From Diacronema lutheri (lineage: Eukaryota; Haptophyta; Pavlovophyceae; Pavlovales; Pavlovaceae): a stretch of DNA of 64,000 bases. The notes below the pieces were generated by a model. It was given only the letters and a program-made list of their open reading frames with translations, searched no databases and was not told where the DNA came from. Shown in pieces: positions 1 through 53,258 of the stretch. The stretch lies in assembly GCA_019448385.1 (NCBI GenBank), contig JAGTXO010000008.1, forward strand, positions 992,001 to 1,056,000, written 5' to 3'. A program made the translations under genes and the position numbers. Positions within the stretch are counted from its first letter, which is position 1, and every line of letters begins with the position of its first letter.

Positions 1-210
1 GCACAACGCGCCGCGGCGGCGGGCAAGGCGAGCATGGCGGGCGCGCGGAGCACGCCGGCCAAGTGGACCACGGCGGGCGGTGCTCGCTGCGGGGGCTAGG
101 AGCCCACCGTCGTCGGTGGCGTGCTGAGAAGAGCGCGGGCTCTTCGTCGTCCATGTTGTCTCGCCTCGGCACACACGATGCGCCGTTCGCCGGTGTGCGG
201 AGCGTCGGCG
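1..210. repeat. Left copy of a ~208-bp sequence flanking the RT array
   Basis: This stretch matches 23049-23256 on the far side of the array with only scattered substitutions and small indels. Both copies contain the same run from 'gcacaacgcgccgcggcgg' to 'ccggtgtgcggagcgt'. It lies outside the 7.5-kb units. No convincing protein was recognised in either strand. It may be the edge of a larger duplication whose left part lies beyond the window. Confidence 0.8.
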
Positions 211-475
211 GGGGCGTCGGCGGCGCTGGGCGGCAGCGGCAGCGGCGAAGCGAGCAAGGCCGGCGTGGCATCGATGTGGCTGCAGCAGCTCAACATGTCC
301 GGGCATTTGCAAACCCCGGACACGTTGACGCTCGCGCCGAGCGCCAGCGGTAAGCGCCTAGCCTTATTGGGTCTTCCTCTCTTCCTTCTGCATGCACGTG
401 CGCGGCCCCGGGTCGCGGTGCGGCGCACGGCAATAAGGCGCGAAGGTGGCCCCTGGGCCCGCTATTTCGACATGC
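211..475. other. Unique left flank of the array, possible exon end
   Basis: This is non-array sequence between the flanking repeat and the first unit. One plus-strand frame reads WLQQLNMSGHLQTPDTLTL and is followed at about 351 by 'agcg|gtaagc', which looks like an exon end with a splice donor. No family was recognised, so this is only a possible fragment of a host or element gene. Confidence 0.25.
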
Positions 476-1074
476 TGAATAGCGAGAACGTCGGGCGAGA
501 AGAGCCCTGGCTGGACGCGCGTACTGCCCCTCGCGCTTCGACCAGTCGGACAGCCGGCGCTGCCAAGGCCGCTAAGCGGCGGACGGCTGCCGTCGGCGGC
601 GAGCGGCGGCGCGCGTGCGCCCAGCTCGACGAGGAAGGCTTTGGCGTGCAGCAGAACCAGATGGGCCTGATGCAGGCATGCGACAACTCGTTCCCGCCGA
701 TCCGCGCGCTCGTCATCGGCTCGTTTGGCGAGTGGTCGGCCGGCCTCGCCGACCTGCTCGCGACCTTCTCGCACATGGGCGCGGACGCGTGGATGGCGCG
801 CATGAGCGCGCCCTTGCGCGGCGTCGCCCAGGCGGCGCTCGAGCGGCACATGCGCCTCCAGCTCGCCGCGTGTGTCGTGCCTGGGCACGCGCAGCTCCTG
901 CTCGTGCGCGCGCAGATGGCGCGCGGACAGACGCCACCGCAGCGCCGGGCGGGCCATGGCGCGCAGGCCGATGTGGATGCCTGCGGCGGTGTGGACGGCG
1001 CTTGCTGCCGCCGGCGCGGTGGCGGCAGCGGTGGTGGCGAAGGCGACGGGCGGGCTCCGGCACGGGATCACTAG
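463..1074 (+). pseudogene. C-terminal fragment of a sister RT/nuclease ORF, unit 1
   Basis: The plus strand encodes a stretch closely matching the last ~190 residues of the intact RT protein in the same unit: ALVIGSFGEWSAGLADLLATFSHMGADAWMARM here against VVVGSFGEWSAG and SHMGADAWMARM there. The frame runs to a stop at 1072-1074. The RT and nuclease core are absent, so it is a remnant. It differs clearly from the intact ORF and so represents a sister subfamily. In unit 1 its beginning (FDMLN) reaches further left than in units 2 and 3. Confidence 0.8.
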
Positions 1075-1254
1075 GCGCGTGAGTGGGGGGGTGACTCCTC
1101 CGTGTTCCCCGCCCGTGCCGCGCCCTTGCCGTCGCTGTCGTCACCGCTGCCGGCGTGCACAGGGTTGTCGCCCTGACCTCGGACCTACGCCTTTCGCTCG
1201 ATACGTTCGCCGCGCCTCGGCCGCGCGAACGTCCCAGCGTAACCGTGCGCGAGC

Positions 1255-2852
1255 GGCGCCGTACGCATCAACCGGGATGGGGGTGAGGAAGAAGAGGAGG
1301 GCGTGCTCAGCGTTGAGCATGTCGAAACGGCAGCGCTCGCGGTCGCCAGTGATGTCGGCCAAGAGGCTAAGCCGGCGGCCGGTGGGCGGAAGTGGCGGGC
1401 GCGACCGAGCCCAGCGGCAGGCGGAGGACTCGCACCTCCGTGTCGCCCTGCCCGCCACCAAGCTCGGCCTGTATGGCGCGCCAGGCGGAGTCGAGCTCGC
1501 GCCCGAGGCGCGAGTCCGAGGCGCGGAACGAGCGCCACCCGTGCGCGCCCATGTCGGCGAAGGCGCCGCGCCCGACGCGCGCCGCGAGGGCAGGCCGATC
1601 GACGACGACGCCTGCCTCCAGCACCGAGCCATCCGCTGCGCGCGTGTCGAGCAGGTGCACCAAGGCGAGCCACGCGGCACTCCAGAGCAGGGTGGGCGCT
1701 ACGTCGACCTGCTTGCGCAGGCCGGCGCTATGCATCGCGATGGGGAGCGGCAGCCGACGGCAAGCGATGGCACCCGTCGAGTGGGAGAAAGGAAGAGCGA
1801 CAGTAGCCTGTCGGGCGACGATGTCGTCGAAGGCAGCCGCGGCAGGCAGGGAGTCCGACACGTACGAATGGCAGATCCGAGCGTTGTGATCAGCTTGTTC
1901 GAGATGCCAGCGATCTCGTCGGTCGTGGTCGCGAGGGTCGTGCCCACGTAGCCGGGCGAGCCCGCCGGCATGCCGTAGACGTTGAGGCCGTAGTAAAGGG
2001 CGCCAGTCGCCGGCCCCGCCATTGAATCGAGGGCGAATGCCTCCTGCAGCCCTCGAGCGTGGCCGCAAAGCGCGGGTCGACCCAGCACGCCGACGTGGCC
2101 AGGTTGGCGTGGAGGCCGAGGCCAGCCAGCGTGCTCTCGAAGCGCAAAAGCGCGGCAGCGACAAAGGGCGGGCGGGCCGACGGCGTAGACGTCGTCGTGA
2201 CCAGCGCGCGCGGCCCCACCGGCCGCGGCGAGCTCGGCGTCGAGGGCCACGAGCGCGGGCTGGATGGGGTCGCGAAGACGTGGCTTCCCTCCACCGAGCC
2301 CTGCTGCACGCCCTCCAAGCTGCGGAAGAGGAGCTGCGTGAGGGGCGCGCCACCGCAGCCGCCACAGGCAAACACGAGCGTCTCCGGGCCGAGAGTCGCG
2401 TACGCAAGGCGAGCGAGCGCGCGAATCTCGTTGGGGACGCTGGCGTCCGCCACGTGGCGAAGGGCGGCCAAGAAGAGTCGAGCGTGAAGATGCCGGAGGT
2501 ATGCTCAGCGTCCAGCAGCTCGCGCAGGCCGAAGATGAGCTTGGTGGCGCCCGCCTTGACCGTCATCCCGAGCTGCTGCGGCGCGAGGTGGCCCGCGAAG
2601 GCATCCGTTGAGGACGCGTTCGCAAAGGTCGCCTTCGTCACCGCCCGTCGGAGCACACAAGAGATGGCCCCCGGCCGGGCATCCTCGGGCTCACCAGCAG
2701 CCGAGGCGCGTTTGCGCAGCGCAAGGAGGCGCACAGCTGAGAAGACGAAGTTGAACCACCCGGGCAGTGCGCCGTTGGCGAAGCGCGTCGCGCGAAGTAC
2801 GCGCCGGCGACCGTCGCGTCAGCCGCAACGAGCGAGGGGAAGGGCACGGAAT
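1255..2852 (-). pseudogene. Inverted, decayed RT-domain fragment, unit 1
   Basis: Minus-strand frames match the intact RT protein from its VPFPS segment (residue ~247) through the RT core to VDAYG (residue ~870). Recognisable pieces are RLLALRKRASA, APQQLGMTV, GVQQGSV and GHDDVYAVG. The reading frame shifts several times, the N-terminal ~245 residues are missing, and about 70 residues are deleted before VDAYG. Together with the plus-strand fragment at 463-1074 it looks like one sister copy split into two oppositely oriented parts. The very long plus-strand ORFs over this stretch are shadows. Confidence 0.8.
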
Positions 2853-2899
2853 TCAGGATTTTGAGTGGATTTCTGTCGTGACTAGTTTCTGGACTTTCT

Positions 2900-5800
2900 A
2901 CAAGGGACGGGCTCCTCCCCTCGCGCCAGCGCGCCGCCGTCACGGCCAGCCCCGCGCACGTTCCGGCGTCCGGCACAGGGCCAGCAGGGGCCACCGCAGG
3001 GGCCGCCTCCGCCGCCCTACCCGCCGCCACCGCCGCCCCCTCCGCCGCCGTCACCACCGCGGGACGGAGACGAGGACGAGCGGGGCGTCGGCGGCGACGA
3101 CGACGTCGACGTCGTCGACGACGGGCACGCCGGCGGCGATGATGCCGACGCTCGCGGCCGGCGGCAGCGGCACCGTGCCGGGGCTAGCCGCGCAGACCCC
3201 GCCATGCCGCCGGCCACGGCGCACCGGTCGATGCAGGGCGGCACGTACGCGGCGCTGGACCACCTCACCGTCATGCAGGCCGCGGGTCTGGCGCCTGATT
3301 CGGCCGTCCCGATGCTGGTCAGCGTGCCGCACGACTTTTCGGAGCGCTTCGCCATGGCTTTCGTGCAGGTGATCCACAAGCTTCGCGACGCCGAGGCGGA
3401 CGAGGGCACCGGCGGCCACGGCGCACGCCAGCCGGCGACAGAACGCGCGCTCAAGATGCTTCTCCTGCTGCCAGCGCTCCTCCTACGCGCGACCCGCGCC
3501 GACAAAGTGAGGGCAGGCAAACAGCTTGCCTCGCGCTTCGCCGCATGGGAGACGGGTGACTACGACCAATTGGTTGCGCACTGGGAGCGCGACTGCTCGT
3601 GGCACGCGGCGCGCGCGTTCCAGTCGTCGCAGGATGCGGCCGAGCGCCTGCACAAGCGCGTGCTCGCACTCATCGCCAAGGGCAAGGTGTCCGACGCGCG
3701 GCGGCTACTGGAGAGCTTGGGTGTCGCCGACATAGCCCGCCCGGAGGTGCTCGCGCAGATGGCAGCCAAACACCCGGTGCGCACGGCGGACGTCGACGAC
3801 GGCCTTGCCGATCGGGACGACTTGCCCCGAGTGGTGGTCTCGCCGGAAGACATCGTGACGGCGTTCCGCAGCCTCGACACGGACAAGGCGGCCGGCGCCT
3901 CGACCTGGCGCTACGAATACCTCATCGCCCTGGTGCCGACCGTGCCCTTCCCGTCGATCATGGCGGCCGATGCGGCACACTCGGGCGCCTACTTTGCGAC
4001 GCGCTTCGCCAACAACTTGCTGCCTGCGTGGTTCAATTTCGTCTTCTCCTCCGTGCGGCTCCTGGCGCTTCGCAAGTGTACGCCCGGGGTGGACGGGCGC
4101 GAGGACGCTCGCCCGGTCGGCATCGGTTGTGCGTTGCGACGGGCGGTGTCCAAGGCGGTGGTCTCGCGCGCATCGCACAAGGCGCTGGCGGCGGGCTACT
4201 TCGCGCCGCAGCAGCTGGGAGTCGCCGTACCGTCGGGCGGCACCAAGCTCGTCCTCTCCGTGCGCGAACTCCTCGACGCGGATCCCACGCTCTGCATCGT
4301 CGCGGTCGACGTCTCCAACGCCTTCAACTCCATCAGTCGGGCGCATCTCCTGCGCTGCCTGACGGACGTTCGCCTCCCTGAGGACCTCCGAGCGCTCGCT
4401 CGCCTCGCGCTCGCGACGCTCGCTCAAGAGGCGCTGGTCTTCGCGGGCGGCGGCAGCGGCGGGGCACCTCTCCGTGAGCTCGGCTTCCGCAGCTCCGAGG
4501 GCGTCCAGCAGGGTGCACCGGAAAGCTCCTTCTTCTTCGCGGCCGCCATCCAACCTCTTCTCGAGGAGTTCGACGCGCGCCTGGCGCTCCACGGCGGGAC
4601 GGTCCGCGCGGCGCACGACGACGTGTACCTCCTCGGGCGGCCGGTAGATGTCTTCGCCGCGCTTGCGGACTTCACGCGACGGTTGGAGGACCTCGGCCTT
4701 TGCGCCAATGCGGCCAAGTCGCAGTGCTGGATCGACCCGCTCCACATGGCCTCGCTCGAGGCCTGCCGCGGCTCGGTCCCGCTCGGCTCGGTACCAGACG
4801 GCGCGGGCGGCGCTTCTTACGGCATCGATGTCTACGGCGTGCCCATCGGCGCGCGCGAGTATGTGCACTCGACCCTCAGCACGAAGGCCGACGAGCTTGC
4901 CGGCAAAGCGAACAACATGATTCAGTCGCTCGGCTCGTCGGACAAACAGTCGCTGTGGGTCCTGTTGCGCTGCTCGTTCCAGCACCGCTTCGCATACCTC
5001 ACCTCCAACTCCTACCCTTCTGACGCGGCCGGCGCGGCGGCGATCTACGACGCTGCCGTCCTTCGGGTCGCCACCGTCGCCCTCGGCGTCTCGGTGTCCA
5101 CAGATGCTCACGTCTGCCGCCGGCTGTTCCTGCCGGTCGCGCAGCACGGCGGCGGCCTGCGCCGGCAGGCCGACTCTGCGCTCGCGGAAGTCTGGGGCGC
5201 AGCGTGGCGGGTCGTGCCGCACTTGCTCGACACGCTCGCGCCGGACGGCACGGTGCTCATGCAGGGCATCCTCGACCGCCCGGCCATCGCAGCTCGCGTC
5301 GGTCGCGGCGCATTCGAGGACATGCCCACGCAGGGCTGGCGCCAGTTTTTCGCCTCGGGCTCGCGCCTAGGCGGCGAGCTCGAGGCGACGTGGAGTCGCA
5401 TGCAGACGGAGCTGGCCGGATGGGGGCAGCAGCCGGACGGCGTGGAGGTGCGCGTGCTGCACTTGCCCGCTGGGTCGGTCGCACCCGCGGCGCCCGACGC
5501 GGGTCGCAGGCCCAACCTGCAGGCCGACATCACCGGCGACCGCGAGCGCTGCCGCCTCGCGATGCTCGACGCGGAGCACGCCGCCATGCCCCCCTCCACA
5601 CGCGCGCGCCAGCTGTGGTTCGCACTCGGTCGGGAGAGCGGCTTGTTTCTCTCGTTGCTGCCGCGCGGCCTCGGCGCCTTCTCGTGCGCGGAGTGGGTCG
5701 AGGCCACGGCGCGCTACTTTGGCCTGCCGAGCCCGGCATGCGCGCCGCTCGCGGCGGCGGGCGCGCGCCTCCCGCGCAGCGGCGCGCAGCGGCCGGTGCC

Positions 5801-6754
5801 AGTCGACGCTTACGGCGACTCGATCGCTGCGGCGCCCGGCGTCGCGCACGACCACTTCGCCAAGCTTCGGCATGACCCGGTTCTCGCCGCGGTCGCGTCG
5901 CTCGCCCGCATGGCGGGCGCCTACGTGCGCCTCGAGGACAGTGACATCTTCGGCTCCGTGCTCGCCGGCGTGCCGGCCGCGGGCCGCCGTGCGCTCGGTC
6001 GCCGGCGCGTGCCGACAGTCGACTTCGTCATCGCGCTCCGCAGCCAGCTGAACCTCTTCGAGCTCAAGACGCTCGCCTTCTGCCCGACGCGCTACAAGCC
6101 GTGGGCGGACGCCCGACGCTGCGGGGCAGTGGAGCTGCGCGCGCGCGAGGTGCCGAGGGAGCGGCTACGCGAGTGCGTCGCGCTCGACCGGGAGGTCTTC
6201 GCGGCGCCGGAGGGCCACGTGGGCCCGATGCAGCGGCGCCTCCACGAGTTCCCGCCGCTGCAGGCGGTCGTCGTCGGCAGTTTTGGCGAATGGTCGGCCG
6301 GGCTGGCTACCCTCCTCAAGACGCTCTCGCACATGGGCGCGGACGCGTGGATGGCGCGCATGCGCGCGCCGACTCGCGGTGCCGCCCAGGCGTCGCTCGA
6401 GCGCGTCATGCGCCACCAGCTCGCCGCGTGCGTGGTGCGCGGGCACGCGCAGCTGCTGCTCGCGCGCGCGCGCATGGTGCGCGCGGGGGCGGCGCCGCGT
6501 CGTGCGGCCGACCAGGCGGCGGAAGCGGGCGCTGACGCGTGCGGTGGTTTGGACGGCGTGTATCGCCTGCACGCGGGCGGCGGCACGCGACCGGCAGCGC
6601 GCGGCGGTTAGGCACGTGCGGGCCCTTTGGGCCCGTCGGGCCTCGCTGCCCGCTCGCTGGTGACCGGGATGCGCGGGGATCGACGACATTGGTGGCTGCT
6701 CGATTCCCCCGCAGCTGGTGCTGACCCCGCTGTCCTGACGTAAGCGCCGTTAGT
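2900..6754 (+). mobile_element. LINE-like retroelement, full length, unit 1
   Basis: The element is bounded by an exact 15-bp direct repeat gtttctggactttct at 2885-2899 and 6755-6769, as expected for target-primed reverse transcription. Removing it joins two parts of an otherwise continuous unit. The 3' end (acgtaagcgccgttagt, 6738-6754) is confirmed by 24263-24279, where the reverse complement of the same 17 bases ends another fragment. It has one large ORF (3204-6611), a 143-bp 3' UTR and no poly-A tail. A proline-rich open frame without ATG runs from 2886 to the ORF start. The C-terminal nuclease and single ORF recall early-branching non-LTR clades (R2/CRE-like layout), but I cannot assign a clade. 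Confidence 0.85.
3204..6611 (+). CDS. Reverse transcriptase with C-terminal PD-(D/E)XK-like nuclease, unit 1
   Basis: This 1135-residue ORF is open throughout. RT landmarks are KAAGASTWRYEYL (228-240), APQQLGVAVPSGG (334-346), the catalytic-Asp segment VDVSNAFNS (368-376), GVQQGAPES (433-441) and the second catalytic pair in AHDDVY (470-475), where AHDD replaces the usual YADD. Near the C terminus, PTVDFVI followed by FELKTLAF places D940, E953 and K955 in the spacing of a PD-(D/E)XK nuclease. No apurinic endonuclease, integrase or RNase H was recognised. By family knowledge it would nick the target and copy element RNA in place. This is the first in-frame ATG. It differs from the copies in units 2 and 3 only at residue 110 (S instead of A) as far as I could compare. 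Confidence 0.9.
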   Translation: MPPATAHRSMQGGTYAALDHLTVMQAAGLAPDSAVPMLVSVPHDFSERFAMAFVQVIHKLRDAEADEGTGGHGARQPATERALKMLLLLPALLLRATRADKVRAGKQLASRFAAWETGDYDQLVAHWERDCSWHAARAFQSSQDAAERLHKRVLALIAKGKVSDARRLLESLGVADIARPEVLAQMAAKHPVRTADVDDGLADRDDLPRVVVSPEDIVTAFRSLDTDKAAGASTWRYEYLIALVPTVPFPSIMAADAAHSGAYFATRFANNLLPAWFNFVFSSVRLLALRKCTPGVDGREDARPVGIGCALRRAVSKAVVSRASHKALAAGYFAPQQLGVAVPSGGTKLVLSVRELLDADPTLCIVAVDVSNAFNSISRAHLLRCLTDVRLPEDLRALARLALATLAQEALVFAGGGSGGAPLRELGFRSSEGVQQGAPESSFFFAAAIQPLLEEFDARLALHGGTVRAAHDDVYLLGRPVDVFAALADFTRRLEDLGLCANAAKSQCWIDPLHMASLEACRGSVPLGSVPDGAGGASYGIDVYGVPIGAREYVHSTLSTKADELAGKANNMIQSLGSSDKQSLWVLLRCSFQHRFAYLTSNSYPSDAAGAAAIYDAAVLRVATVALGVSVSTDAHVCRRLFLPVAQHGGGLRRQADSALAEVWGAAWRVVPHLLDTLAPDGTVLMQGILDRPAIAARVGRGAFEDMPTQGWRQFFASGSRLGGELEATWSRMQTELAGWGQQPDGVEVRVLHLPAGSVAPAAPDAGRRPNLQADITGDRERCRLAMLDAEHAAMPPSTRARQLWFALGRESGLFLSLLPRGLGAFSCAEWVEATARYFGLPSPACAPLAAAGARLPRSGAQRPVPVDAYGDSIAAAPGVAHDHFAKLRHDPVLAAVASLARMAGAYVRLEDSDIFGSVLAGVPAAGRRALGRRRVPTVDFVIALRSQLNLFELKTLAFCPTRYKPWADARRCGAVELRAREVPRERLRECVALDREVFAAPEGHVGPMQRRLHEFPPLQAVVVGSFGEWSAGLATLLKTLSHMGADAWMARMRAPTRGAAQASLERVMRHQLAACVVRGHAQLLLARARMVRAGAAPRRAADQAAEAGADACGGLDGVYRLHAGGGTRPAARGG

Positions 6755-6997
6755 GTTTCTGGACTTTCTGCGTCAAGCTGCCAAGGCTCCAATGCCACAA
6801 GGGCCAAGGCGCCCGCCGCCCACGGCAAACCGCCTGCACACACCGGCAACGCATGCGACACAGAAGTCCACAGGGAAACACCATGATGGGGGTTTCACAC
6901 CCTTGCGACCACTGACCGGGCCGAATCCCCTGCTGGTGTGCAATGCGGTGAGCCACCGACCGGCCCAAATCCGCCTGCGTGCAGTGCGGTGAGCCAC

Positions 6998-7459
6998 TCA
7001 GCCCTGCTGCTCAGTCGATCCCTTCACGAGCGCAATACCAATAAGTGCAAGGAAACCAAGAGCAAGCACGCAAATGACGACGCTGAACTTAAGGTCGAGC
7101 TGCGCGAACTGCGCAGAGAGCTGCACAACCTCCTTGTTCGTAGCGGCGAACTGCGCAGAGAGCTGCACAACCTCCTTGTTCGTAGCGGCGAACTGCGCAG
7201 AGAGCTGCACAACCTCCTTGTTCATAGCGGCGAACTGCGCAGCGGTCTCCTTGTTCATAGCGGCGAACTGCGCAGCAGTCTCCTTGCTCGCAGCGTCGAA
7301 CCGGTTGTCAATGAAGATGTACGCGCCCAGCAGGGTAGCTGAGAATGTCGCCAATGTGGCCATGGTGGACGCGATGATGTTCAGCCACTGGAGCTCGCCC
7401 GGTGGCGGCGGCGGCTGCGGCTGCGGTGATGGCGGCGGCGTCGGTGGGGCCGCCACCAT
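6998..7459 (-). CDS. Two-helix membrane protein with coiled-coil repeats, unit 1 (3 repeats)
   Basis: Family not recognised. The 153-residue protein has a proline-rich N terminus (residues 5-20), a hydrophobic helix (~28-50, ending GAYIFI), an alanine-rich coiled coil (~54-120) and a second helix (~125-146, VVICVLALGFLALIGIALV). The coil is built from two 11-residue units (NKETAAQFAAM type) and three 14-residue units (NKEVVQLSAQFAAT), so each long unit is two heptads. The 42-bp DNA repeat keeps frame when copies are gained or lost. I chose the ATG at 7459 because the predicted protein begins cleanly there. The frame stays open upstream to 7927, so a longer form is possible. It lies 3' of the LINE and points towards it. 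Confidence 0.6.
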   Translation of the reverse strand: MVAAPPTPPPSPQPQPPPPPGELQWLNIIASTMATLATFSATLLGAYIFIDNRFDAASKETAAQFAAMNKETAAQFAAMNKEVVQLSAQFAATNKEVVQLSAQFAATNKEVVQLSAQFAQLDLKFSVVICVLALGFLALIGIALVKGSTEQQG

Positions 7460-7955
7460 CCTCAAATGCCGATACGTGCGCTCTGGCGCGCGAGACAGGA
7501 GCGGCGACGCACGAGAGCCACACGGTCCAAAGATGCACGAATGCGTGCCCGGCTGCCACATGACGGCACCATGGAGAGGCGTACTGAGCCAGACGAAGAG
7601 GACGCACGCTGCGTACAACGAGGGGAGCGACAGACAGAAAGCGGCACGCGATAAGCACGAAAAGCGTGGATGCGCGCCGCATGTCGCGATCGCGAGCGGC
7701 GCGGAGGCGTCTCGGCGAGCGACCGCGCGAGCGAACGCGCATGGCGCACCCTGCATCGGGAGGCAAGCGCAAGGACGATGCTGAGGAGCTGCGCGGCGAA
7801 GGATGCTGGGCATGACGCAAGCGGCAGCGCGCCAGAAAGCCGTCGCAGGAGGGCGGGCGGCTCGGATGCGAGCAATGGCCGTCTTTCCGCAAGCAAGATG
7901 GCGGCCGGCGCTTTGGAGCCCAAACAAATCTGCTCAGAGCAAACTCATCGGCGAG
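7460..7955. other. Upstream region of the membrane-protein gene (same in all units)
   Basis: About 500 bp between the membrane-protein ATG and the unit boundary. It is open in several frames (including N-terminal extensions of the membrane protein on the minus strand), which is expected for GC-rich DNA. I see no recognisable domain, promoter box or RNA gene. The equivalent stretches are 15003-15498 and 22464-22959. Confidence 0.4.
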
Positions 7956-7989
7956 TGGTGAATCGCGAGCACGTCGGGCGAGAAGCGCC

Positions 7990-8556
7990 CTGGCTGGACG
8001 CGCGTACCTCCCCACGCGCTACGACCAGTCGGACAACCGGCGCTTCCAGGCGGCTGAGCGGCGGACGGCTGCCGTCGGCGGCGAGGGGCGTCGCGCGTGC
8101 GCCCAGCTCGACGAGGAGCTCTTCGGCGCGCAGCAGGGCCAGATGGGCCTGATGCAGGCGCGCCTTGACTCATTCCCGCCGGTGCGCGCGCTCGTCATCG
8201 GCTCGTTTGGCGAGTGGTCGGCCGGCCTCGCCGACCTGCTCGCGACCTTCTCGCACATGGGCGCGGACGCGTGGATGGCGCGCATGAGCGCGCCCTTGCG
8301 CGGCGTCGCCCAGGCGGCGCTCGAGCGGCACATGCGCCTCCAGCTCGCCGCGTGTGTCGTGCCTGGGCACGCGCAGCTCCTGCTCGTGCGCGCGCAGATG
8401 GCGCGCGGACAGACGCCACCGCAGCGCCGGGCAGGCCATGGCGCGCAGGCCGATGTGGATGCCTGCGGCGGTGTGGACGGCGCTTGCTGCCGCCGGCGCG
8501 GTGGCGGCAGCGGCGGTGGCGAAGGCGACGGGCGGGCTCCGGCACGGGTTGGCTAG
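7990..8556 (+). pseudogene. C-terminal fragment of a sister RT ORF, unit 2
   Basis: Same remnant as in unit 1 but with a cleaner upstream frame: LPTRYDQSDNRRFQAAERR aligns with CPTRYKPWADARR of the intact ORF (residues ~959-971). It continues through RALVIGSFGEWSAG to a stop at 8554-8556. A poly-G tract follows directly. Confidence 0.8.
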
Positions 8557-8754
8557 GCGCGTGAGTGGGGGGGGGGGGGAGGGGGGGGGAGTGACTCCTC
8601 CGTGTTCCCCGCCCGTGCCGCGCCCTTGCCGTCGCTGTCGTCACCGCTGCCGGCGTGCACAGGGTTGTCGCCCTGACCTCGGACCTACGCCTTTCGCTCG
8701 ATACGTTCGCCGCGCCTCGGCCGCGCGAACGTCCCAGCGTAACCGTGCGCGAGC

Positions 8755-10353
8755 GGCGCCGTACGCATCAACCGGGATGGGGGTGAGGAAGAAGAGGAGG
8801 GCGTGCTCAGCGTTGAGCATGTCGAAACGGCAGCGCTCGCGGTCGCCAGTGATGTAGGCCAAGAGGCTAAGCCGGCGGTCGGTGGGCGGAAGTGGCGGGC
8901 GCGACCGAGCCCAGCGGCAGGCGGAGAATTCGCACCTCCGTGTCGCCCTGCCCGTCACCAAGCTCGGCCTGTATGGCGCGCCAGGCGGAGTCGAGCTCGC
9001 GCCCGAGGCGCGAGTCCGAGGCGCGGAACGAGCGCCACCCGTGCGCGCCCATGTCGGGCGAAGGCGCCGCGCCCGACGCGCGCCGCGAGGGCAGGCCGAT
9101 CGACGACGACGCCTGCCTCCAGCACCGAGCCATCCGCTGCGCGCGTGTCGAGCAGGTGCACCAAGGCGAGCCACGCGGCACTCCAGAGCAGGGTGGGCGC
9201 TACGTCGACCTGCTTGCGCAGGCCGGCGCTATGCATCGCGATGGGGAGCGGCAGCCGACGGCAAGCGATGGCACCCGTCGAGTGGGAGAAAGGAAGAGCG
9301 ACAGTAGCCTGTCGGGCGACGATGTCGTCGAAGGCAGCCGCGGCAGGCAGGGAGTCCGACACGTACGAATGGCAGATCCGAGCGTTGTGATCAGCTTGTT
9401 CGAGAAGCCAGCGATCTCGTCGGTCGTGGTCGCGAATGTCGTGCCCACGTAGCCGGGCGAGCCCGCCGGCATGCCGTAGACGTTGAGGCCGTAGTAAAGG
9501 GCGCCAGTCGCCGGCCCCGCCATTGAATCGAGGGCGAATGCCTCCTGCAGCCCTCGAGCGTGGCCGCAAAGCGCGGGTCGACCCAGCACGCCGACGTGGC
9601 CAGGTTGGCGTGGAGGCCGAGGCCAGCCAGCGTGCTCTCGAAGCGCAAAAGCGCGGCAGCGACAAAGGGCGGGCGGGCCGACGGCGTAGACGTCGTCGTG
9701 ACCAGCGCGCGCGGCCCCACCGGCCGCGGCGAGCTCGGCGTCGAGGGCCACGAGCGCGGGCTGGATGGGGTCGCGAAGACGTGGCTTCCCTCCACCGAGC
9801 CCTGCTGCACGCCCTCCAAGCTGCGGAAGAGGAGCTGCGTGAGGGGCGCGCCACCGCAGCCGCCACAGGCAAACACGAGCGTCTCCGGGCCGAGAGTCGC
9901 GTACGCAAGGCGAGCGAGCGCGCGAATCTCGTTGGGGACGCTGGCGTCCGCCACGTGGCGAAGGGCGGCCAAGAAGAGTCGAGCGTGAAGATGCCGGAGG
10001 TATGCTCAGCGTCCAGCAGCTCGCGCAGGCCGAAGATGAGCTTGGTGGCGCCCGCCTTGACCGTCATCCCGAGCTGCTGCGGCGCGAGGTGGCCCGCGAA
10101 GGCATCCGTTGAGGACGCGTTCGCAAAGGTCGCCTTCGTCACCGCCCGTCGGAGCACACAAGAGATGGCCCCCGGCCGGGCATCCTCGGGCTCACCAGCA
10201 GCCGAGGCGCGTTTGCGCAGCGCAAGGAGGCGCACAGCTGAGAAGACGAAGTTGAACCACCCGGGCAGTGCGCCGTTGGCGAAGCGCGTCGCGCGAAGTA
10301 CGCGCCGGCGACCGTCGCGTCAGCCGCAACGAGCGAGGGGAAGGGCACGGAAT
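8755..10353 (-). pseudogene. Inverted, decayed RT-domain fragment, unit 2
   Basis: Copy of the minus-strand remnant described for unit 1, with the same frame shifts and the same internal deletion. A one-base insertion relative to unit 1 lies near 9057, and a few substitutions are shared with unit 3. Confidence 0.8.
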
Positions 10354-10400
10354 TCAGGATTTTGAGTGGATTTCTGTCGTGACTAGTTTCTGGACTTTCT

Positions 10401-14255: not shown

Positions 14256-14498
14256 GTTTCTGGACTTTCTGCGTCAAGCTGCCAAGGCTCCAATGCCACA
14301 AGGGCCAAGGCGCCCGCCGCCCACGGCAAACCGCCTGCACACACCGGCAACGCATGCGACACAGAAGTCCACAGGGAAACACCATGATGGGGGTTTCACA
14401 CCCTTGCGACCACTGACCGGGCCGAATCCCCTGCTGGTGTGCAATGCGGTGAGCCACCGACCGGCCCAAATCCGCCTGCGTGCAGTGCGGTGAGCCAC

Positions 14499-15002
14499 TC
14501 AGCCCTGCTGCTCAGTCGATCCCTTCACGAGCGCAATACCAATAAGTGCAAGGAAACCAAGAGCAAGCACGCAAATGACGACGCTGAACTTAAGGTCGAG
14601 CTGCGCGAACTGCGCAGAGAGCTGCACAACCTCCTTGTTCGTAGCGGCGAACTGCGCAGAGAGCTGCACAACCTCCTTGTTCGTAGCGGCGAACTGCGCA
14701 GAGAGCTGCACAACCTCCTTGTTCGTAGCGGCGAACTGCGCAGAGAGCTGCACAACCTCCTTGTTCATAGCGGCGAACTGCGCAGCGGTCTCCTTGTTCA
14801 TAGCGGCGAACTGCGCAGCAGTCTCCTTGCTCGCAGCGTCGAACCGGTTGTCAATGAAGATGTACGCGCCCAGCAGGGTAGCTGAGAATGTCGCCAATGT
14901 GGCCAGGGTGGACGCGATGATGTTCAGCCACTGGAGCTCGCCCGGTGGCGGCGGCGGCTGCGGCTGCGGTGATGGCGGCGGCGTCGGTGGGGCCGCCACC
15001 AT
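14499..15002 (-). CDS. Two-helix membrane protein with coiled-coil repeats, unit 2 (4 repeats)
   Basis: A 167-residue version of the membrane protein with four 14-residue NKEVVQLSAQFAAT units instead of three, lengthening the predicted coil by two heptads. Both flanking helices are unchanged, except that the segment STLATLATFS here has L where unit 1 has M. Confidence 0.6.
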   Translation of the reverse strand: MVAAPPTPPPSPQPQPPPPPGELQWLNIIASTLATLATFSATLLGAYIFIDNRFDAASKETAAQFAAMNKETAAQFAAMNKEVVQLSAQFAATNKEVVQLSAQFAATNKEVVQLSAQFAATNKEVVQLSAQFAQLDLKFSVVICVLALGFLALIGIALVKGSTEQQG

Positions 15003-15529
15003 CCTCAAATGCCGATACGTGCGCTCTGGCGCGCGAGACAGGAGCGGCGACGCACGAGAGCCACACGGTCCAAAGATGCACGAATGCGTGCCCGGCTGCC
15101 ACATGACGGCACCATGGAGAGGCGTACTGAGCCAGACGAAGAGGACGCACGCTGCGTACAACGAGGGGAGCGACAGACAGAAAGCGGCACGCGATAAGCA
15201 CGAAAAGCGTGGATGCGCGCCGCATGTCGCGATCGCGAGCGGCGCGGAGGCGTCTCGGCGAGCGACCGCGCGAGCGAACGCGCATGGCGCACCCTGCATC
15301 GGGAGGCAAGCGCAAGGACGATGCTGAGGAGCTGCGCGGCGAAGGATGCTGGGCATGACGCAAGCGGCAGCGCGCCAGAAAGCCGTCGCAGGAGGGCGGG
15401 CGGCTCGGATGCGAGCAATGGCCGTCTTTCCGCAAGCAAGATGGCGGCCGGCGCTTTGGAGCCCAAACAAATCTGCTCAGAGCAAACTCATCGGCGAGTG
15501 GTGAATCGCGAGCACGTCGGGCGAGAAGC

Positions 15530-16099
15530 GCCCTGGCTGGACGCGCGTACCTCCCCACGCGCTACGACCAGTCGGACAACCGGCGCTTCCAGGCGGCTGA
15601 GCGGCGGACGGCTGCCGTCGGCGGCGAGGGGCGTCGCGCGTGCGCCCAGCTCGACGAGGAGCTCTTCGGCGCGCAGCAGGGCCAGATGGGCCTGATGCAG
15701 GCGCGCCTTGACTCATTCCCGCCGGTGCGCGCGCTCGTCATCGGCTCGTTTGGCGAGTGGTCGGCCGGCCTCGCCGACCTGCTCGCGACCTTCTCGCACA
15801 TGGGCGCGGACGCGTGGATGGCGCGCATGAGCGCGCCCTTGCGCGGCGTCGCCCAGGCGGCGCTCGAGCGGCACATGCGCCTCCAGCTCGCCGCGTGTGT
15901 CGTGCCTGGGCACGCGCAGCTCCTGCTCGTGCGCGCGCAGATGGCACGCGGACAGACGCCACCGCAGCGCCGGGCAGGCCATGGCGCGCAGGCCGATGTG
16001 GATGCCTGCGGCGGTGTGGACGGCGCTTGCTGCCGCCGGCGCGGTGGCGGCAGCGGCGGTGGCGAAGGCGACGGGCGGGCTCCGGCACGGGTTGGCTAG
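15530..16099 (+). pseudogene. C-terminal fragment of a sister RT ORF, unit 3
   Basis: Near-identical to the unit 2 remnant. One visible change lies in the tail (cgcgcagatggcacgcgg instead of ...gcgcgcgg). It is followed by a 25-base G tract at 16110-16134. Confidence 0.8.
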
Positions 16100-16299
16100 G
16101 CGCGTGAGTGGGGGGGGGGGGGGGGGGGGGGGGGAGTGACTCCTCCGTGTTCCCCGCCCGTGCCGCGCCCTTGCCGTCGCTGTCGTCACCGCTGCCGGCG
16201 TGCACAGGGTTGTCGCCCTGACCTCGGACCTACGCCTTTCGCTCGATACGTTCGCCGCGCCTCGGCCGCGCGAACGTCCCAGCGTAACCGTGCGCGAGC

Positions 16300-17898
16300 G
16301 GCGCCGTACGCATCAACCGGGATGGGGGTGAGGAAGAAGAGGAGGGCGTGCTCAGCGTTGAGCATGTCGAAACGGCAGCGCTCGCGGTCGCCAGTGATGT
16401 AGGCCAAGAGGCTAAGCCGGCGGTCGGTGGGCGGAAGTGGCGGGCGCGACCGAGCCCAGCGGCAGGCGGAGAATTCGCACCTCCGTGTCGCCCTGCCCGT
16501 CACCAAGCTCGGCCTGTATGGCGCGCCAGGCGGAGTCGAGCTCGCGCCCGAGGCGCGAGTCCGAGGCGCGGAACGAGCGCCACCCGTGCGCGCCCATGTC
16601 GGGCGAAGGCGCCGCGCCCGACGCGCGCCGCGAGGGCAGGCCGATCGACGACGACGCCTGCCTCCAGCACCGAGCCATCCGCTGCGCGCGTGTCGAGCAG
16701 GTGCACCAAGGCGAGCCACGCGGCACTCCAGAGCAGGGTGGGCGCTACGTCGACCTGCTTGCGCAGGCCGGCGCTATGCATCGCGATGGGGAGCGGCAGC
16801 CGACGGCAAGCGATGGCACCCGTCGAGTGGGAGAAAGGAAGAGCGACAGTAGCCTGTCGGGCGACGATGTCGTCGAAGGCAGCCGCGGCAGGCAGGGAGT
16901 CCGACACGTACGAATGGCAGATCCGAGCGTTGTGATCAGCTTGTTCGAGAAGCCAGCGATCTCGTCGGTCGTGGTCGCGAATGTCGTGCCCACGTAGCCG
17001 GGCGAGCCCGCCGGCATGCCGTAGACGTTGAGGCCGTAGTAAAGGGCGCCAGTCGCCGGCCCCGCCATTGAATCGAGGGCGAATGCCTCCTGCAGCCCTC
17101 GAGCGTGGCCGCAAAGCGCGGGTCGACCCAGCACGCCGACGTGGCCAGGTTGGCGTGGAGGCCGAGGCCAGCCAGCGTGCTCTCGAAGCGCAAAAGCGCG
17201 GCAGCGACAAAGGGCGGGCGGGCCGACGGCGTAGACGTCGTCGTGACCAGCGCGCGCGGCCCCACCGGCCGCGGCGAGCTCGGCGTCGAGGGCCACGAGC
17301 GCGGGCTGGATGGGGTCGCGAAGACGTGGCTTCCCTCCACCGAGCCCTGCTGCACGCCCTCCAAGCTGCGGAAGAGGAGCTGCGTGAGGGGCGCGCCACC
17401 GCAGCCGCCACAGGCAAACACGAGCGTCTCCGGGCCGAGAGTCGCGTACGCAAGGCGAGCGAGCGCGCGAATCTCGTTGGGGACGCTGGCGTCCGCCACG
17501 TGGCGAAGGGCGGCCAAGAAGAGTCGAGCGTGAAGATGCCGGAGGTATGCTCAGCGTCCAGCAGCTCGCGCAGGCCGAAGATGAGCTTGGTGGCGCCCGC
17601 CTTGACCGTCATCCCGAGCTGCTGCGGCGCGAGGTGGCCCGCGAAGGCATCCGTTGAGGACGCGTTCGCAAAGGTCGCCTTCGTCACCGCCCGTCGGAGC
17701 ACACAAGAGATGGCCCCCGGCCGGGCATCCTCGGGCTCACCAGCAGCCGAGGCGCGTTTGCGCAGCGCAAGGAGGCGCACAGCTGAGAAGACGAAGTTGA
17801 ACCACCCGGGCAGTGCGCCGTTGGCGAAGCGCGTCGCGCGAAGTACGCGCCGGCGACCGTCGCGTCAGCCGCAACGAGCGAGGGGAAGGGCACGGAAT
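16300..17898 (-). pseudogene. Inverted, decayed RT-domain fragment, unit 3
   Basis: Third copy of the minus-strand RT remnant, sharing its frame shifts and internal deletion with unit 2. Confidence 0.8.
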
Positions 17899-17945
17899 TC
17901 AGGATTTTGAGTGGATTTCTGTCGTGACTAGTTTCTGGACTTTCT

Positions 17946-20900
17946 ACAAGGGACGGGCTCCTCCCCTCGCGCCAGCGCGCCGCCGTCACGGCCAGCCCCG
18001 CGCACGTTCCGGCGTCCGGCACAGGGCCAGCAGGGGCCACCGCAGGGGCCGCCTCCGCCGCCCTACCCGCCGCCACCGCCGCCCCCTCCGCCGCCGTCAC
18101 CACCGCGGGACGGAGACGAGGACGAGCGGGGCGTCGGCGGCGACGACGACGTCGACGTCGTCGACGACGGGCACGCCGGCGGCGATGATGCCGACGCTCG
18201 CGGCCGGCGGCAGCGGCACCGTGCCGGGGCTAGCCGCGCAGACCCCGCCATGCCGCCGGCCACGGCGCACCGGTCGATGCAGGGCGGCACGTACGCGGCG
18301 CTGGACCACCTCACCGTCATGCAGGCCGCGGGTCTGGCGCCTGATTCGGCCGTCCCGATGCTGGTCAGCGTGCCGCACGACTTTTCGGAGCGCTTCGCCA
18401 TGGCTTTCGTGCAGGTGATCCACAAGCTTCGCGACGCCGAGGCGGACGAGGGCACCGGCGGCCACGGCGCACGCCAGCCGGCGACAGAACGCGCGCTCAA
18501 GATGCTTCTCCTGCTGCCAGCGCTCCTCCTACGCGCGACCCGCGCCGACAAAGTGAGGGCAGGCAAACAGCTTGCCGCGCGCTTCGCCGCATGGGAGACG
18601 GGTGACTACGACCAATTGGTTGCGCACTGGGAGCGCGACTGCTCGTGGCACGCGGCGCGCGCGTTCCAGTCGTCGCAGGATGCGGCCGAGCGCCTGCACA
18701 AGCGCGTGCTCGCACTCATCGCCAAGGGCAAGGTGTCCGACGCGCGGCGGCTACTGGAGAGCTTGGGTGTCGCCGACATAGCCCGCCCGGAGGTGCTCGC
18801 GCAGATGGCAGCCAAACACCCGGTGCGCACGGCGGACGTCGACGACGGCCTTGCCGATCGGGACGACTTGCCCCGAGTGGTGGTCTCGCCGGAAGACATC
18901 GTGACGGCGTTCCGCAGCCTCGACACGGACAAGGCGGCCGGCGCCTCGACCTGGCGCTACGAATACCTCATCGCCCTGGTGCCGACCGTGCCCTTCCCGT
19001 CGATCATGGCGGCCGATGCGGCACACTCGGGCGCCTACTTTGCGACGCGCTTCGCCAACAACTTGCTGCCTGCGTGGTTCAATTTCGTCTTCTCCTCCGT
19101 GCGGCTCCTGGCGCTTCGCAAGTGTACGCCCGGGGTGGACGGGCGCGAGGACGCTCGCCCGGTCGGCATCGGTTGTGCGTTGCGACGGGCGGTGTCCAAG
19201 GCGGTGGTCTCGCGCGCATCGCACAAGGCGCTGGCGGCGGGCTACTTCGCGCCGCAGCAGCTGGGAGTCGCCGTACCGTCGGGCGGCACCAAGCTCGTCC
19301 TCTCCGTGCGCGAACTCCTCGACGCGGATCCCACGCTCTGCATCGTCGCGGTCGACGTCTCCAACGCCTTCAACTCCATCAGTCGGGCGCATCTCCTGCG
19401 CTGCCTGACGGACGTTCGCCTCCCTGAGGACCTCCGAGCGCTCGCTCGCCTCGCGCTCGCGACGCTCGCTCAAGAGGCGCTGGTCTTCGCGGGCGGCGGC
19501 AGCGGCGGGGCACCTCTCCGTGAGCTCGGCTTCCGCAGCTCCGAGGGCGTCCAGCAGGGTGCACCGGAAAGCTCCTTCTTCTTCGCGGCCGCCATCCAAC
19601 CTCTTCTCGAGGAGTTCGACGCGCGCCTGGCGCTCCACGGCGGGACGGTCCGCGCGGCGCACGACGACGTGTACCTCCTCGGGCGGCCGGTAGATGTCTT
19701 CGCCGCGCTTGCGGACTTCACGCGACGGTTGGAGGACCTCGGCCTTTGCGCCAATGCGGCCAAGTCGCAGTGCTGGATCGACCCGCTCCACATGGCCTCG
19801 CTCGAGGCCTGCCGCGGCTCGGTCCCGCTCGGCTCGGTACCAGACGGCGCGGGCGGCGCTTCTTACGGCATCGATGTCTACGGCGTGCCCATCGGCGCGC
19901 GCGAGTATGTGCACTCGACCCTCAGCACGAAGGCCGACGAGCTTGCCGGCAAAGCGAACAACATGATTCAGTCGCTCGGCTCGTCGGACAAACAGTCGCT
20001 GTGGGTCCTGTTGCGCTGCTCGTTCCAGCACCGCTTCGCATACCTCACCTCCAACTCCTACCCTTCTGACGCGGCCGGCGCGGCGGCGATCTACGACGCT
20101 GCCGTCCTTCGGGTCGCCACCGTCGCCCTCGGCGTCTCGGTGTCCACAGATGCTCACGTCTGCCGCCGGCTGTTCCTGCCGGTCGCGCAGCACGGCGGCG
20201 GCCTGCGCCGGCAGGCCGACTCTGCGCTCGCGGAAGTCTGGGGCGCAGCGTGGCGGGTCGTGCCGCACTTGCTCGACACGCTCGCGCCGGACGGCACGGT
20301 GCTCATGCAGGGCATCCTCGACCGCCCGGCCATCGCAGCTCGCGTCGGTCGCGGCGCATTCGAGGACATGCCCACGCAGGGCTGGCGCCAGTTTTTCGCC
20401 TCGGGCTCGCGCCTAGGCGGCGAGCTCGAGGCGACGTGGAGTCGCATGCAGACGGAGCTGGCCGGATGGGGGCAGCAGCCGGACGGCGTGGAGGTGCGCG
20501 TGCTGCACTTGCCCGCTGGGTCGGTCGCACCCGCGGCGCCCGACGCGGGTCGCAGGCCCAACCTGCAGGCCGACATCACCGGCGACCGCGAGCGCTGCCG
20601 CCTCGCGATGCTCGACGCGGAGCACGCCGCCATGCCCCCCTCCACACGCGCGCGCCAGCTGTGGTTCGCACTCGGTCGGGAGAGCGGCTTGTTTCTCTCG
20701 TTGCTGCCGCGCGGCCTCGGCGCCTTCTCGTGCGCGGAGTGGGTCGAGGCCACGGCGCGCTACTTTGGCCTGCCGAGCCCGGCATGCGCGCCGCTCGCGG
20801 CGGCGGGCGCGCGCCTCCCGCGCAGCGGCGCGCAGCGGCCGGTGCCAGTCGACGCTTACGGCGACTCGATCGCTGCGGCGCCCGGCGTCGCGCACGACCA

Positions 20901-21800
20901 CTTCGCCAAGCTTCGGCATGACCCGGTTCTCGCCGCGGTCGCGTCGCTCGCCCGCATGGCGGGCGCCTACGTGCGCCTCGAGGACAGTGACATCTTCGGC
21001 TCCGTGCTCGCCGGCGTGCCGGCCGCGGGCCGCCGTGCGCTCGGTCGCCGGCGCGTGCCGACAGTCGACTTCGTCATCGCGCTCCGCAGCCAGCTGAACC
21101 TCTTCGAGCTCAAGACGCTCGCCTTCTGCCCGACGCGCTACAAGCCGTGGGCGGACGCCCGACGCTGCGGGGCAGTGGAGCTGCGCGCGCGCGAGGTGCC
21201 GAGGGAGCGGCTACGCGAGTGCGTCGCGCTCGACCGGGAGGTCTTCGCGGCGCCGGAGGGCCACGTGGGCCCGATGCAGCGGCGCCTCCACGAGTTCCCG
21301 CCGCTGCAGGCGGTCGTCGTCGGCAGTTTTGGCGAATGGTCGGCCGGGCTGGCTACCCTCCTCAAGACGCTCTCGCACATGGGCGCGGACGCGTGGATGG
21401 CGCGCATGCGCGCGCCGACTCGCGGTGCCGCCCAGGCGTCGCTCGAGCGCGTCATGCGCCACCAGCTCGCCGCGTGCGTGGTGCGCGGGCACGCGCAGCT
21501 GCTGCTCGCGCGCGCGCGCATGGTGCGCGCGGGGGCGGCGCCGCGTCGTGCGGCCGACCAGGCGGCGGAAGCGGGCGCTGACGCGTGCGGTGGTTTGGAC
21601 GGCGTGTATCGCCTGCACGCGGGCGGCGGCACGCGACCGGCAGCGCGCGGCGGTTAGGCACGTGCGGGCCCTTTGGGCCCGTCGGGCCTCGCTGCCCGCT
21701 CGCTGGTGACCGGGATGCGCGGGGATCGACGACATTGGTGGCTGCTCGATTCCCCCGCAGCTGGTGCTGACCCCGCTGTCCTGACGTAAGCGCCGTTAGT
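17946..21800 (+). mobile_element. LINE-like retroelement, full length, unit 3
   Basis: Third copy, flanked by the 15-bp direct repeat at 17931-17945 and 21801-21815. Confidence 0.85.
18250..21657 (+). CDS. Reverse transcriptase with PD-(D/E)XK-like nuclease, unit 3
   Basis: Open 1135-residue ORF that matches the unit 2 protein. All RT blocks and the nuclease D...ExK triad are kept. Confidence 0.9.
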   Translation: MPPATAHRSMQGGTYAALDHLTVMQAAGLAPDSAVPMLVSVPHDFSERFAMAFVQVIHKLRDAEADEGTGGHGARQPATERALKMLLLLPALLLRATRADKVRAGKQLAARFAAWETGDYDQLVAHWERDCSWHAARAFQSSQDAAERLHKRVLALIAKGKVSDARRLLESLGVADIARPEVLAQMAAKHPVRTADVDDGLADRDDLPRVVVSPEDIVTAFRSLDTDKAAGASTWRYEYLIALVPTVPFPSIMAADAAHSGAYFATRFANNLLPAWFNFVFSSVRLLALRKCTPGVDGREDARPVGIGCALRRAVSKAVVSRASHKALAAGYFAPQQLGVAVPSGGTKLVLSVRELLDADPTLCIVAVDVSNAFNSISRAHLLRCLTDVRLPEDLRALARLALATLAQEALVFAGGGSGGAPLRELGFRSSEGVQQGAPESSFFFAAAIQPLLEEFDARLALHGGTVRAAHDDVYLLGRPVDVFAALADFTRRLEDLGLCANAAKSQCWIDPLHMASLEACRGSVPLGSVPDGAGGASYGIDVYGVPIGAREYVHSTLSTKADELAGKANNMIQSLGSSDKQSLWVLLRCSFQHRFAYLTSNSYPSDAAGAAAIYDAAVLRVATVALGVSVSTDAHVCRRLFLPVAQHGGGLRRQADSALAEVWGAAWRVVPHLLDTLAPDGTVLMQGILDRPAIAARVGRGAFEDMPTQGWRQFFASGSRLGGELEATWSRMQTELAGWGQQPDGVEVRVLHLPAGSVAPAAPDAGRRPNLQADITGDRERCRLAMLDAEHAAMPPSTRARQLWFALGRESGLFLSLLPRGLGAFSCAEWVEATARYFGLPSPACAPLAAAGARLPRSGAQRPVPVDAYGDSIAAAPGVAHDHFAKLRHDPVLAAVASLARMAGAYVRLEDSDIFGSVLAGVPAAGRRALGRRRVPTVDFVIALRSQLNLFELKTLAFCPTRYKPWADARRCGAVELRAREVPRERLRECVALDREVFAAPEGHVGPMQRRLHEFPPLQAVVVGSFGEWSAGLATLLKTLSHMGADAWMARMRAPTRGAAQASLERVMRHQLAACVVRGHAQLLLARARMVRAGAAPRRAADQAAEAGADACGGLDGVYRLHAGGGTRPAARGG

Positions 21801-22043
21801 GTTTCTGGACTTTCTGCGTCAAGCTGCCAAGGCTCCAATGCCACAAGGGCCAAGGCGCCCGCCGCCCACGGCAAACCGCCTGCACACACCGGCAACGCAT
21901 GCGACACAGAAGTCCACAGGGAAACACCATGATGGGGGTTTCACACCCTTGCGACCACTGACCGGGCCGAATCCCCTGCTGGTGTGCAATGCGGTGAGCC
22001 ACCGACCGGCCCAAATCCGCCTGCGTGCAGTGCGGTGAGCCAC

Positions 22044-22463
22044 TCAGCCCTGCTGCTCAGTCGATCCCTTCACGAGCGCAATACCAATAAGTGCAAGGAA
22101 ACCAAGAGCAAGCACGCAAATGACGACGCTGAACTTAAGGTCGAGCTGCGCGAACTGCGCAGAGAGCTGCACAACCTCCTTGTTCGTAGCGGCGAACTGC
22201 GCAGAGAGCTGCACAACCTCCTTGTTCGTAGCGGCGAACTGCGCAGCGGTCTCCTTGTTCATAGCGGCGAACTGCGCAGCAGTCTCCTTGCTCGCAGCGT
22301 CGAACCGGTTGTCAATGAAGATGTACGCGCCCAGCAGGGTAGCTGAGAATGTCGCCAATGTGGCCAGGGTGGACGCGATGATGTTCAGCCACTGGAGCTC
22401 GCCCGGTGGCGGCGGCGGCTGCGGCTGCGGTGATGGCGGCGGCGTCGGTGGGGCCGCCACCAT
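22044..22463 (-). CDS. Two-helix membrane protein with coiled-coil repeats, unit 3 (2 repeats)
   Basis: A 139-residue version with two 14-residue coil units, the shortest of the three. The frame and both hydrophobic helices are intact, so the gene tolerates length change in the coil. Confidence 0.6.
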   Translation of the reverse strand: MVAAPPTPPPSPQPQPPPPPGELQWLNIIASTLATLATFSATLLGAYIFIDNRFDAASKETAAQFAAMNKETAAQFAATNKEVVQLSAQFAATNKEVVQLSAQFAQLDLKFSVVICVLALGFLALIGIALVKGSTEQQG

Positions 22464-22959
22464 CCTCAAATGCCGATACGTGCGCTCTGGCGCGCGAGAC
22501 AGGAGCGGCGACGCACGAGAGCCACACGGTCCAAAGATGCACGAATGCGTGCCCGGCTGCCACATGACGGCACCATGGAGAGGCGTACTGAGCCAGACGA
22601 AGAGGACGCACGCTGCGTACAACGAGGGGAGCGACAGACAGAAAGCGGCACGCGATAAGCACGAAAAGCGTGGATGCGCGCCGCATGTCGCGATCGCGAG
22701 CGGCGCGGAGGCGTCTCGGCGAGCGACCGCGCGAGCGAACGCGCATGGCGCACCCTGCATCGGGAGGCAAGCGCAAGGACGATGCTGAGGAGCTGCGCGG
22801 CGAAGGATGCTGGGCATGACGCAAGCGGCAGCGCGCCAGAAAGCCGTCGCAGGAGGGCGGGCGGCTCGGATGCGAGCAATGGCCGTCTTTCCGCAAGCAA
22901 GATGGCGGCCGGCGCTTTGGAGACCAAACAAATCTGCTCAGAGCAAACTCATCGGCGAG

Positions 22960-23048
22960 CAAGTCGGCGGCGTTGCGGGCCGCTGAGTATGGGCCAGCGG
23001 CGCCCGCGACGCGCAGGCATCCGTCGAGCAGGCGCTCCTTCGCTTCGC
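22960..23048. other. Right flank of the array
   Basis: An 89-bp stretch between the end of unit 3 and the right copy of the flanking repeat. It is not found in the array, and no feature is seen. If the window continued to the left, the same sequence might precede position 1. Confidence 0.4.
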
Positions 23049-23256
23049 GCACAACGCGCCGCGGCGGCGGGCAAGGCGAGCATGGCGGGCGCGGAGCACG
23101 CCGGCCAAATGGACCACGTCGGGCGGTGCTCGCTGCGGGGGCTAGGAGCCAACCGTCGTCGGTGGCGATGCTGAGAAGAGCGCGGGCTCTTCGTCGTCCA
23201 CGTTTTCTCGCCTCGGCACACACGATGATGCTCGCGTTCGCCGGTGTGCGGAGCGT
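23049..23256. repeat. Right copy of the ~208-bp flanking sequence
   Basis: Matches 1-210. The similarity ends at 'gcggagcgt', after which the two flanks are unrelated. Confidence 0.8.
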
Positions 23257-24253: not shown

Positions 24254-24302
24254 AATATTAATACTAACGGCGCTTACGTTAGTATTAATATTAATACTAA
24301 CG
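24254..24302. promoter_or_regulatory. AT-rich inverted repeat just upstream of SUMO
   Basis: A 16-bp perfect inverted repeat, aatattaatactaacg (24254-24269) and cgttagtattaatatt (24277-24292), with a 7-base loop and a third partial arm to 24302. It lies 55-103 bp upstream of the SUMO ATG in otherwise GC-rich DNA. It overlaps the 3' end of a LINE fragment. A promoter role is inference from position and base composition only. Confidence 0.5.
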
Positions 24303-24618: not shown

Positions 24619-24710
24619 GGTGCCGCGAAGACCTCCCGGCCGCTGCCGGGCGCCACGCCAGCGAGGGCGCCCAACCCCACCGGCGGAGCGCAGCGCAACC
24701 CCGAGCAGTG

Positions 24711-53227: not shown

Positions 53228-53258
<31 letters not shown>

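Follow-up and report, generated by a model that had tools for sequence, protein, structure and literature searches.

Previous reports, in the parts available, describe several systems to which the locus analyzed here can be compared. In Trypanosoma brucei, tandem gene arrays consist of head-to-tail copies that are homogenised by conversion while parts of them remain diverged (PMC1855330). The L1-associated expansion of the mouse Abp genes generated tandem gene-family blocks in which LINEs are present, with recombinant L1 copies at the block edge (PMC3669608). The Zepp clusters of the alga Coccomyxa are LINE copies grouped at one place through nested insertions (PMC3446292), and R2, the nearest solved relative of the LINE described below, is among the restriction-like-endonuclease (RLE) non-LTR elements, with the reverse transcriptase (RT) in mid-protein and the nuclease at the C terminus (PMC4640811). 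In the genome of the haptophyte Diacronema lutheri, LINEs account for 3.8% of masked bases (PMC8379373).

We analyzed a window of 64,000 nucleotides (C71:992001-1056000; 71% GC) of the D. lutheri genome (43,492,796 bases in 103 contigs); positions without a contig name are those of the window. Self-comparison revealed three direct head-to-tail units on the plus strand: unit 1 at 473-7955 (7483 bp), unit 2 at 7956-15498 (7543 bp), and unit 3 at 15499-22959 (7461 bp), a copy number that rests on the assembly. Each unit holds old fragments of one LINE family (LINE-B), a single insertion of a second (LINE-A), and a membrane-protein gene on the minus strand. The three near-identical units of about 7.5 kb reported in a preliminary description of this DNA were thus found where it had placed them, with both the older RT fragments and the membrane-protein frame that it had listed as components. 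The locus is very probably a tandem array of a membrane-protein gene undergoing concerted evolution, in which a 5′-truncated LINE-A is carried as a passenger.

The units are related in a graded manner. Over 7459 aligned bases, units 2 and 3 are separated by 3 substitutions, and their alignment contains 2 gaps. When unit 1 was compared with unit 2, divergence fell in steps from left to right, from 30 of 229 positions (13%) over 473-702 to 14 of 1234 over 703-1936 and 2 of 6019 to the right of 1936, the limits of the edge segments having been picked after the differences were seen; the left edge, 473-702, is diverged to the same extent from unit 3. Such a stepped pattern is expected if exchange stops at the edge of the array. 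At the unit junction neither long homology nor a LINE end was found, and LINE-LINE recombination was likewise not seen there; the first LINE-B piece follows the left edge of the unit at a distance of 47 bp. Because the junction is free of long homology, the first duplication was not obviously homology-driven and could have arisen through short homology.

LINE-B shares 66% amino-acid identity with LINE-A and occupies the left part of the unit as two pieces. A 3′ piece in direct orientation (8003-8735, plus strand, in unit 2; by offset about 520-1234 in unit 1 and 15546-16280 in unit 3) is followed by an inverted internal piece (8800-10350, minus strand, in unit 2; by offset about 1300-2849 and 16345-17895 in units 1 and 3). 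Twin priming was rejected as the origin of the inverted piece, since the 3′ piece precedes it.

To the right of these fragments lies LINE-A, truncated at its 5′ end and inserted on the plus strand at 2900-6754 in unit 1 (ATG frame 3204-6611), 10401-14255 in unit 2 (frame 10705-14112), and 17946-21800 in unit 3 (frame 18250-21657). It is flanked in all three units by the same 15-bp target duplication, as previously claimed, at 2885-2899 and 6755-6769, 10386-10400 and 14256-14270, and 17931-17945 and 21801-21815, respectively, and the insertion point is identical in all three. The LINE-A copy of unit 1 differs from those of units 2 and 3 at 1 position in 3855 bp, and no difference between units 2 and 3 was observed over the 3411-bp coding part. 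Consistent with the earlier statement that the RT proteins differ at residue 110 alone, the sole difference affects codon 110, which reads TCG in unit 1 and GCG in unit 2 and in the dispersed copy L014.

All three LINE frames of the array matched PF00078 (RVT_1, E = 3.8e-10), which was the only Pfam match to these frames; none to a C-terminal nuclease was detected. In profile searches, R2 chains matched the LINE with a best E of 0.0028, over the RT part alone. A structure model of the RT/nuclease protein (four sequences, two families) had a mean pLDDT of only 32.4, and no fold search was made from it. Across these four sequences D940, E953, and K955 are invariant, a pattern that we take to be consistent with a PD-(D/E)XK nuclease motif. 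To judge from its sequence, the element may have an RLE-type layout, with a central RT and a candidate PD-(D/E)XK-type nuclease at the C terminus.

The RT genes had been called intact, which the array copies are not: they possess neither a complete 5′ end nor a full reading frame. When dispersed LINE-A loci were aligned with the array copies, 10 of 14 extended further 5′, the extension being 626 bp (about 210 codons) or more in 9 of these, and the other 4 were shorter; the 14 include both L022 and L023, which are one duplicated segment, and family sizes are lower bounds, 41 of 464 candidates having been scored. Inside the element, the open frame of the array copies is 1236 codons long, compared with 1447 codons in L014. 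The N-terminal part absent from the array is identical at 68 of 162 residues to the upstream frame of the LINE-B copy L028 (E = 1e-29 against that one sequence). The upstream frame of another LINE-B copy, L025, matched in the proline-rich part alone, a part that the array copies keep. L022 (C25:272001-282000) and L023 (C75:12001-22000) have 8290 bases in common at 100% identity, including the LINE-A copy, and this shared segment is either a recent duplication or an assembly overlap.

Divergence over the 3411 coding positions was counted for 12 of the 14 fetched LINE-A loci (L026 and L027 were omitted as short). The dispersed copy nearest to the array is L012, at 35-36 positions; eight others (L013-L018, L020, and L021) differ from the array at 50-58, L022/L023 at 80-81, and L019 at 103-104, a value inflated by unrelated sequence where L019 is truncated. 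Seven of the eight differ from one another by only 6-15 positions, and L016 from those by 21-27. These small mutual differences suggest that the LINE-A family has been recently active, and the array copy appears to belong to a somewhat different lineage, closest to L012. With 0-1 LINE substitution between units and 35-81 to dispersed copies, we conclude that the array copies arose by DNA duplication. The claim that the LINE inserted once and that the whole unit was then amplified or homogenised is supported by the shared insertion point and target duplication in all three units, by their near-identity, and by a conversion-like tract described below.

Selection on the array had also been offered as a reason why the RT frames are open. 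Changes on the array lineage comprise 14 silent, 12 amino-acid-changing, and 1 stop, against an expectation of 8.0 : 18.4 : 0.6 (at least 14 silent of 27, binomial P = 0.013); the single "stop" is a scoring effect of two changes in one codon, and 10 of the 27 changes are common to L012 and hence older than the array. The silent excess is a mild sign of purifying selection, but this could date from the source lineage prior to insertion, so selection within the array is not shown by it. Since the copies are 5′-truncated and the units only one LINE substitution apart, selection on the RT frames is not needed to account for their being open.

The membrane-protein gene lies on the minus strand, with open frames at 7001-7933 in unit 1 (the likely Met form ends at 7459), 14502-15476 in unit 2, and 22047-22937 in unit 3 (likely Met form 22047-22463). 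The gene is predicted to encode a small membrane protein of the coiled-coil type, in which a proline-rich stretch, 14-residue repeats, and two segments judged by eye to be hydrophobic are recognizable. Within the gene, a 42-bp minisatellite varies among units 1, 2, and 3, with 3.3, 4.3, and 2.3 copies, respectively (7104-7242, 14605-14785, and 22150-22246). No Pfam family scored above cut-off for the unit 3 protein; there were two sub-threshold matches (E = 0.058 and 0.15). When C71 copies (unit 2 and a further copy, copy 0) were compared from the likely Met with copies on C88 or C11, dN was 0.30-0.32 and dS 0.52-0.58; in the region 5′ of this Met, dN/dS was nearer 1 in some pairs (e.g., 0.44/0.51). 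These values are weak evidence for coding selection on the membrane-protein gene.

Copy 0 is located at C71:990887-991911 and stops 89 bases short of the window; neither this copy nor the diverged left edge of unit 1 figures in the preliminary description. Upstream, neither LINE-A nor LINE-B was found beside copy 0, and under the search settings applied nothing else in the 30 kb fetched there (L009-L011) matched the unit. The tail of its flank, 1-205 (plus strand), is 93.8% identical to 23049-23256 beyond unit 3; recombination between these two repeats was rejected as the source of the three units, both repeats lying outside them. Comparison of copy 0 with unit 3 gave 17 mismatches in 175 positions over 21996-22170, 0 in 492 over 22271-22762, and 17 in 494 over 22763-23256 (gaps are ignored, the minisatellite stretch 22171-22270 is omitted, and the limits of the zero-mismatch tract were picked after the differences were seen). 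This zero-mismatch, conversion-like tract reaches 5′ of the likely start codon, so protein conservation alone does not explain it.

Searching the assembly for other arrays yielded a LINE-free array of the gene on C88 and a LINE-bearing array on C27. On C88, three gene copies that are 99.8% alike are spaced at about 2.1 kb; the repeated units had no match to LINE-A or LINE-B, the one exception being a short proline/GC-rich stretch outside the units on one side. C11 carries two gene copies. A full-length LINE-A (L018, C11:805001-815000) lies about 1.2 kb from one of these, in an orientation unlike that of the array. The nearness of LINE-A to the gene is therefore not unique to the array, and this result counts against LINE-A and the gene being wholly unconnected.

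About 58 kb downstream of the array, at C71:1072576-1073266 (L033), the gene is joined directly to a LINE-B piece and LINE-A is absent. At 18 sites of the edge stretch 473-702 that distinguish unit 1 from unit 2, L033 has the base of unit 2 in 15 cases and that of unit 1 in 3, which indicates that the edge divergence is mostly a matter of unit 1. As the majority of the changes seem to be specific to unit 1, the 13% divergence could have another local cause. L033 is either a pre-LINE-A relative of the unit or a unit that lost LINE-A; its positions 1227-2128 (C71 about 1072300-1073270) look like a unit with an internal deletion. Single copies of the unit dispersed elsewhere, which the preliminary description had named as evidence against its reading, exist only in part: LINE-A does occur alone, but the whole composite does not, and its closest approach is this shortened LINE-B/gene relative.

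The C27 array occupies C27:198000-213900 (the sequence was read over C27:197501-206500) and has a unit of about 6.1 kb containing one 5′-truncated LINE-B as well as minisatellites. A stretch of 3771 bases recurs at C27:206623-210301 (99%) and partly at C27:212694-213361 (100%). The three LINE-B copies share an end coordinate on the query, and beyond the third there is an additional piece of LINE-B (C27:213358-213882). On its left, the C27 unit ends at the LINE-B 3′ end, although the presence of another LINE there, tail to tail, may be what makes this edge look exact.

Tail-to-tail arrangements of this kind were sought with CGTTAGT and ACTAACG separated by 0-30 bases, which occur at 34 places genome-wide versus 1 for the reversed control, one of them within the window at 24277-24302; exact LINE 3′ ends, GTAAGCGYCGTTAGT, number 599 in the genome and 0 in the control. 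These LINEs may prefer A/T-rich insertion sites, for which the 3′ ends of older LINE copies would be an example. Just outside the array, an inverted LINE-A 3′ fragment (24371-24616) is 95% identical to 6475-6720. A SUMO-like gene of 93 aa (23918-24199, minus strand; Rad60-SLD, E = 1.5e-25) adjoins the array. Further along the window there are two minisatellites, at 24710-25444 (192-bp unit, 3.8 copies, 97% matches) and 31516-32790 (41-bp unit, 31 copies, 98% matches), and an open frame of 1055 aa (51186-54353, minus strand) with a RabGAP-TBC domain (E = 4.4e-47). No Rfam or tRNA hits were obtained in the 64-kb window.

These observations allow the possible origins of the array to be weighed. 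Three separate LINE insertions, producing a nested cluster of the Zepp kind, might be entertained because these LINEs do cluster, as their 34 tail-to-tail 3′ ends indicate; this origin is ruled out by the insertion point, truncation point, and target duplication common to all three units, whose flanks are repeated as well. That one unit was assembled three times in error is very improbable, despite the near-identity of the units: the 42-bp repeat distinguishes them by its copy number, unit 1 has a left edge of its own, and the published assembly was built, according to the available part of its description, from PacBio subreads (N50, 23.5 kb) at a theoretical x368 coverage (PMC8379373). It is unlikely, if less so, that the LINE itself started the array, with nuclease breaks or inserted ends seeding a duplication and truncated LINEs then multiplying as DNA without retrotransposition. 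Two arrays, on C71 and C27, do contain one truncated LINE per unit, and their left unit edges lie at (C27) or within about 50 bp of (C71) LINE-B sequence. The C71 junction, however, has no LINE end, C88 has a LINE-free array of this very gene family, and the C27 edge may only look exact. LINE activity is thus unnecessary to explain the array.

Recent tandem amplification alone, in one event or two quick ones with no long period of exchange, is a possible but doubtful account. It fits the small distances seen, 3 substitutions in 7459 bp for units 2 and 3 and 2 in 6019 for the right part of unit 1, and it would treat the unit 1 edge as a local accident; the steps of unit 1 (30/229, 14/1234, 2/6019) together with the 0/492 tract nevertheless need some exchange. 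Concerted evolution of a gene array accommodates both, as the head-to-tail units are accompanied by tracts of exchange between copies, albeit with limits drawn post hoc. In the course of events that we infer, the spacer next to one gene copy would first have gathered LINE-B fragments and then received a single 5′-truncated insertion of the younger LINE-A family. This segment would have been amplified to three near-identical units, carrying LINE-A along, and the array would since have evolved in concert through unequal crossing-over, the presumed source of its copy number, and gene conversion; a gene-dosage benefit might have contributed. The notion of a LINE in tandem is accordingly right in that the LINE is repeated with the units, but it puts the passenger first, given that the C88 gene array has no LINE.

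The locus offers a small and clear-cut example of a retroelement that multiplied by riding along in a growing gene array, and copy counts or ages based on assumed retrotransposition would wrongly take the three copies in the array for an insertion burst. With its stepped edge and conversion-like tract, it is also well suited to testing concerted evolution in a haptophyte. No published description of the C71 array was found among the matches listed, as judged by titles and abstract openings in the literature on the D. lutheri or Pavlova genome and on haptophyte LINEs.

Array growth of this sort is of an already known kind, of which the C71 locus is a further example. The protein of its passenger may be similar in layout to those of R2 and other RLE elements, with RT in mid-protein and, at the C terminus, a candidate PD-(D/E)XK-type nuclease, the match to R2 covering the RT alone (PMC4640811). 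As in the Coccomyxa Zepp clusters, algal LINE copies are grouped at one place, but where the available part of that report describes nested insertions, D. lutheri has one insertion point repeated with its flanks (PMC3446292). As with mouse Abp, tandem blocks of a gene family contain LINEs; the block edge in the available mouse account carries recombinant L1 copies, whereas in D. lutheri LINE-A lies inside the unit and the junction is free of LINE-LINE recombination (PMC3669608). In behavior the locus resembles the T. brucei arrays, as far as their description is available, whose head-to-tail copies are likewise homogenised yet still diverged in parts; the D. lutheri units differ from these in that each carries a LINE insertion that has been copied along (PMC1855330).
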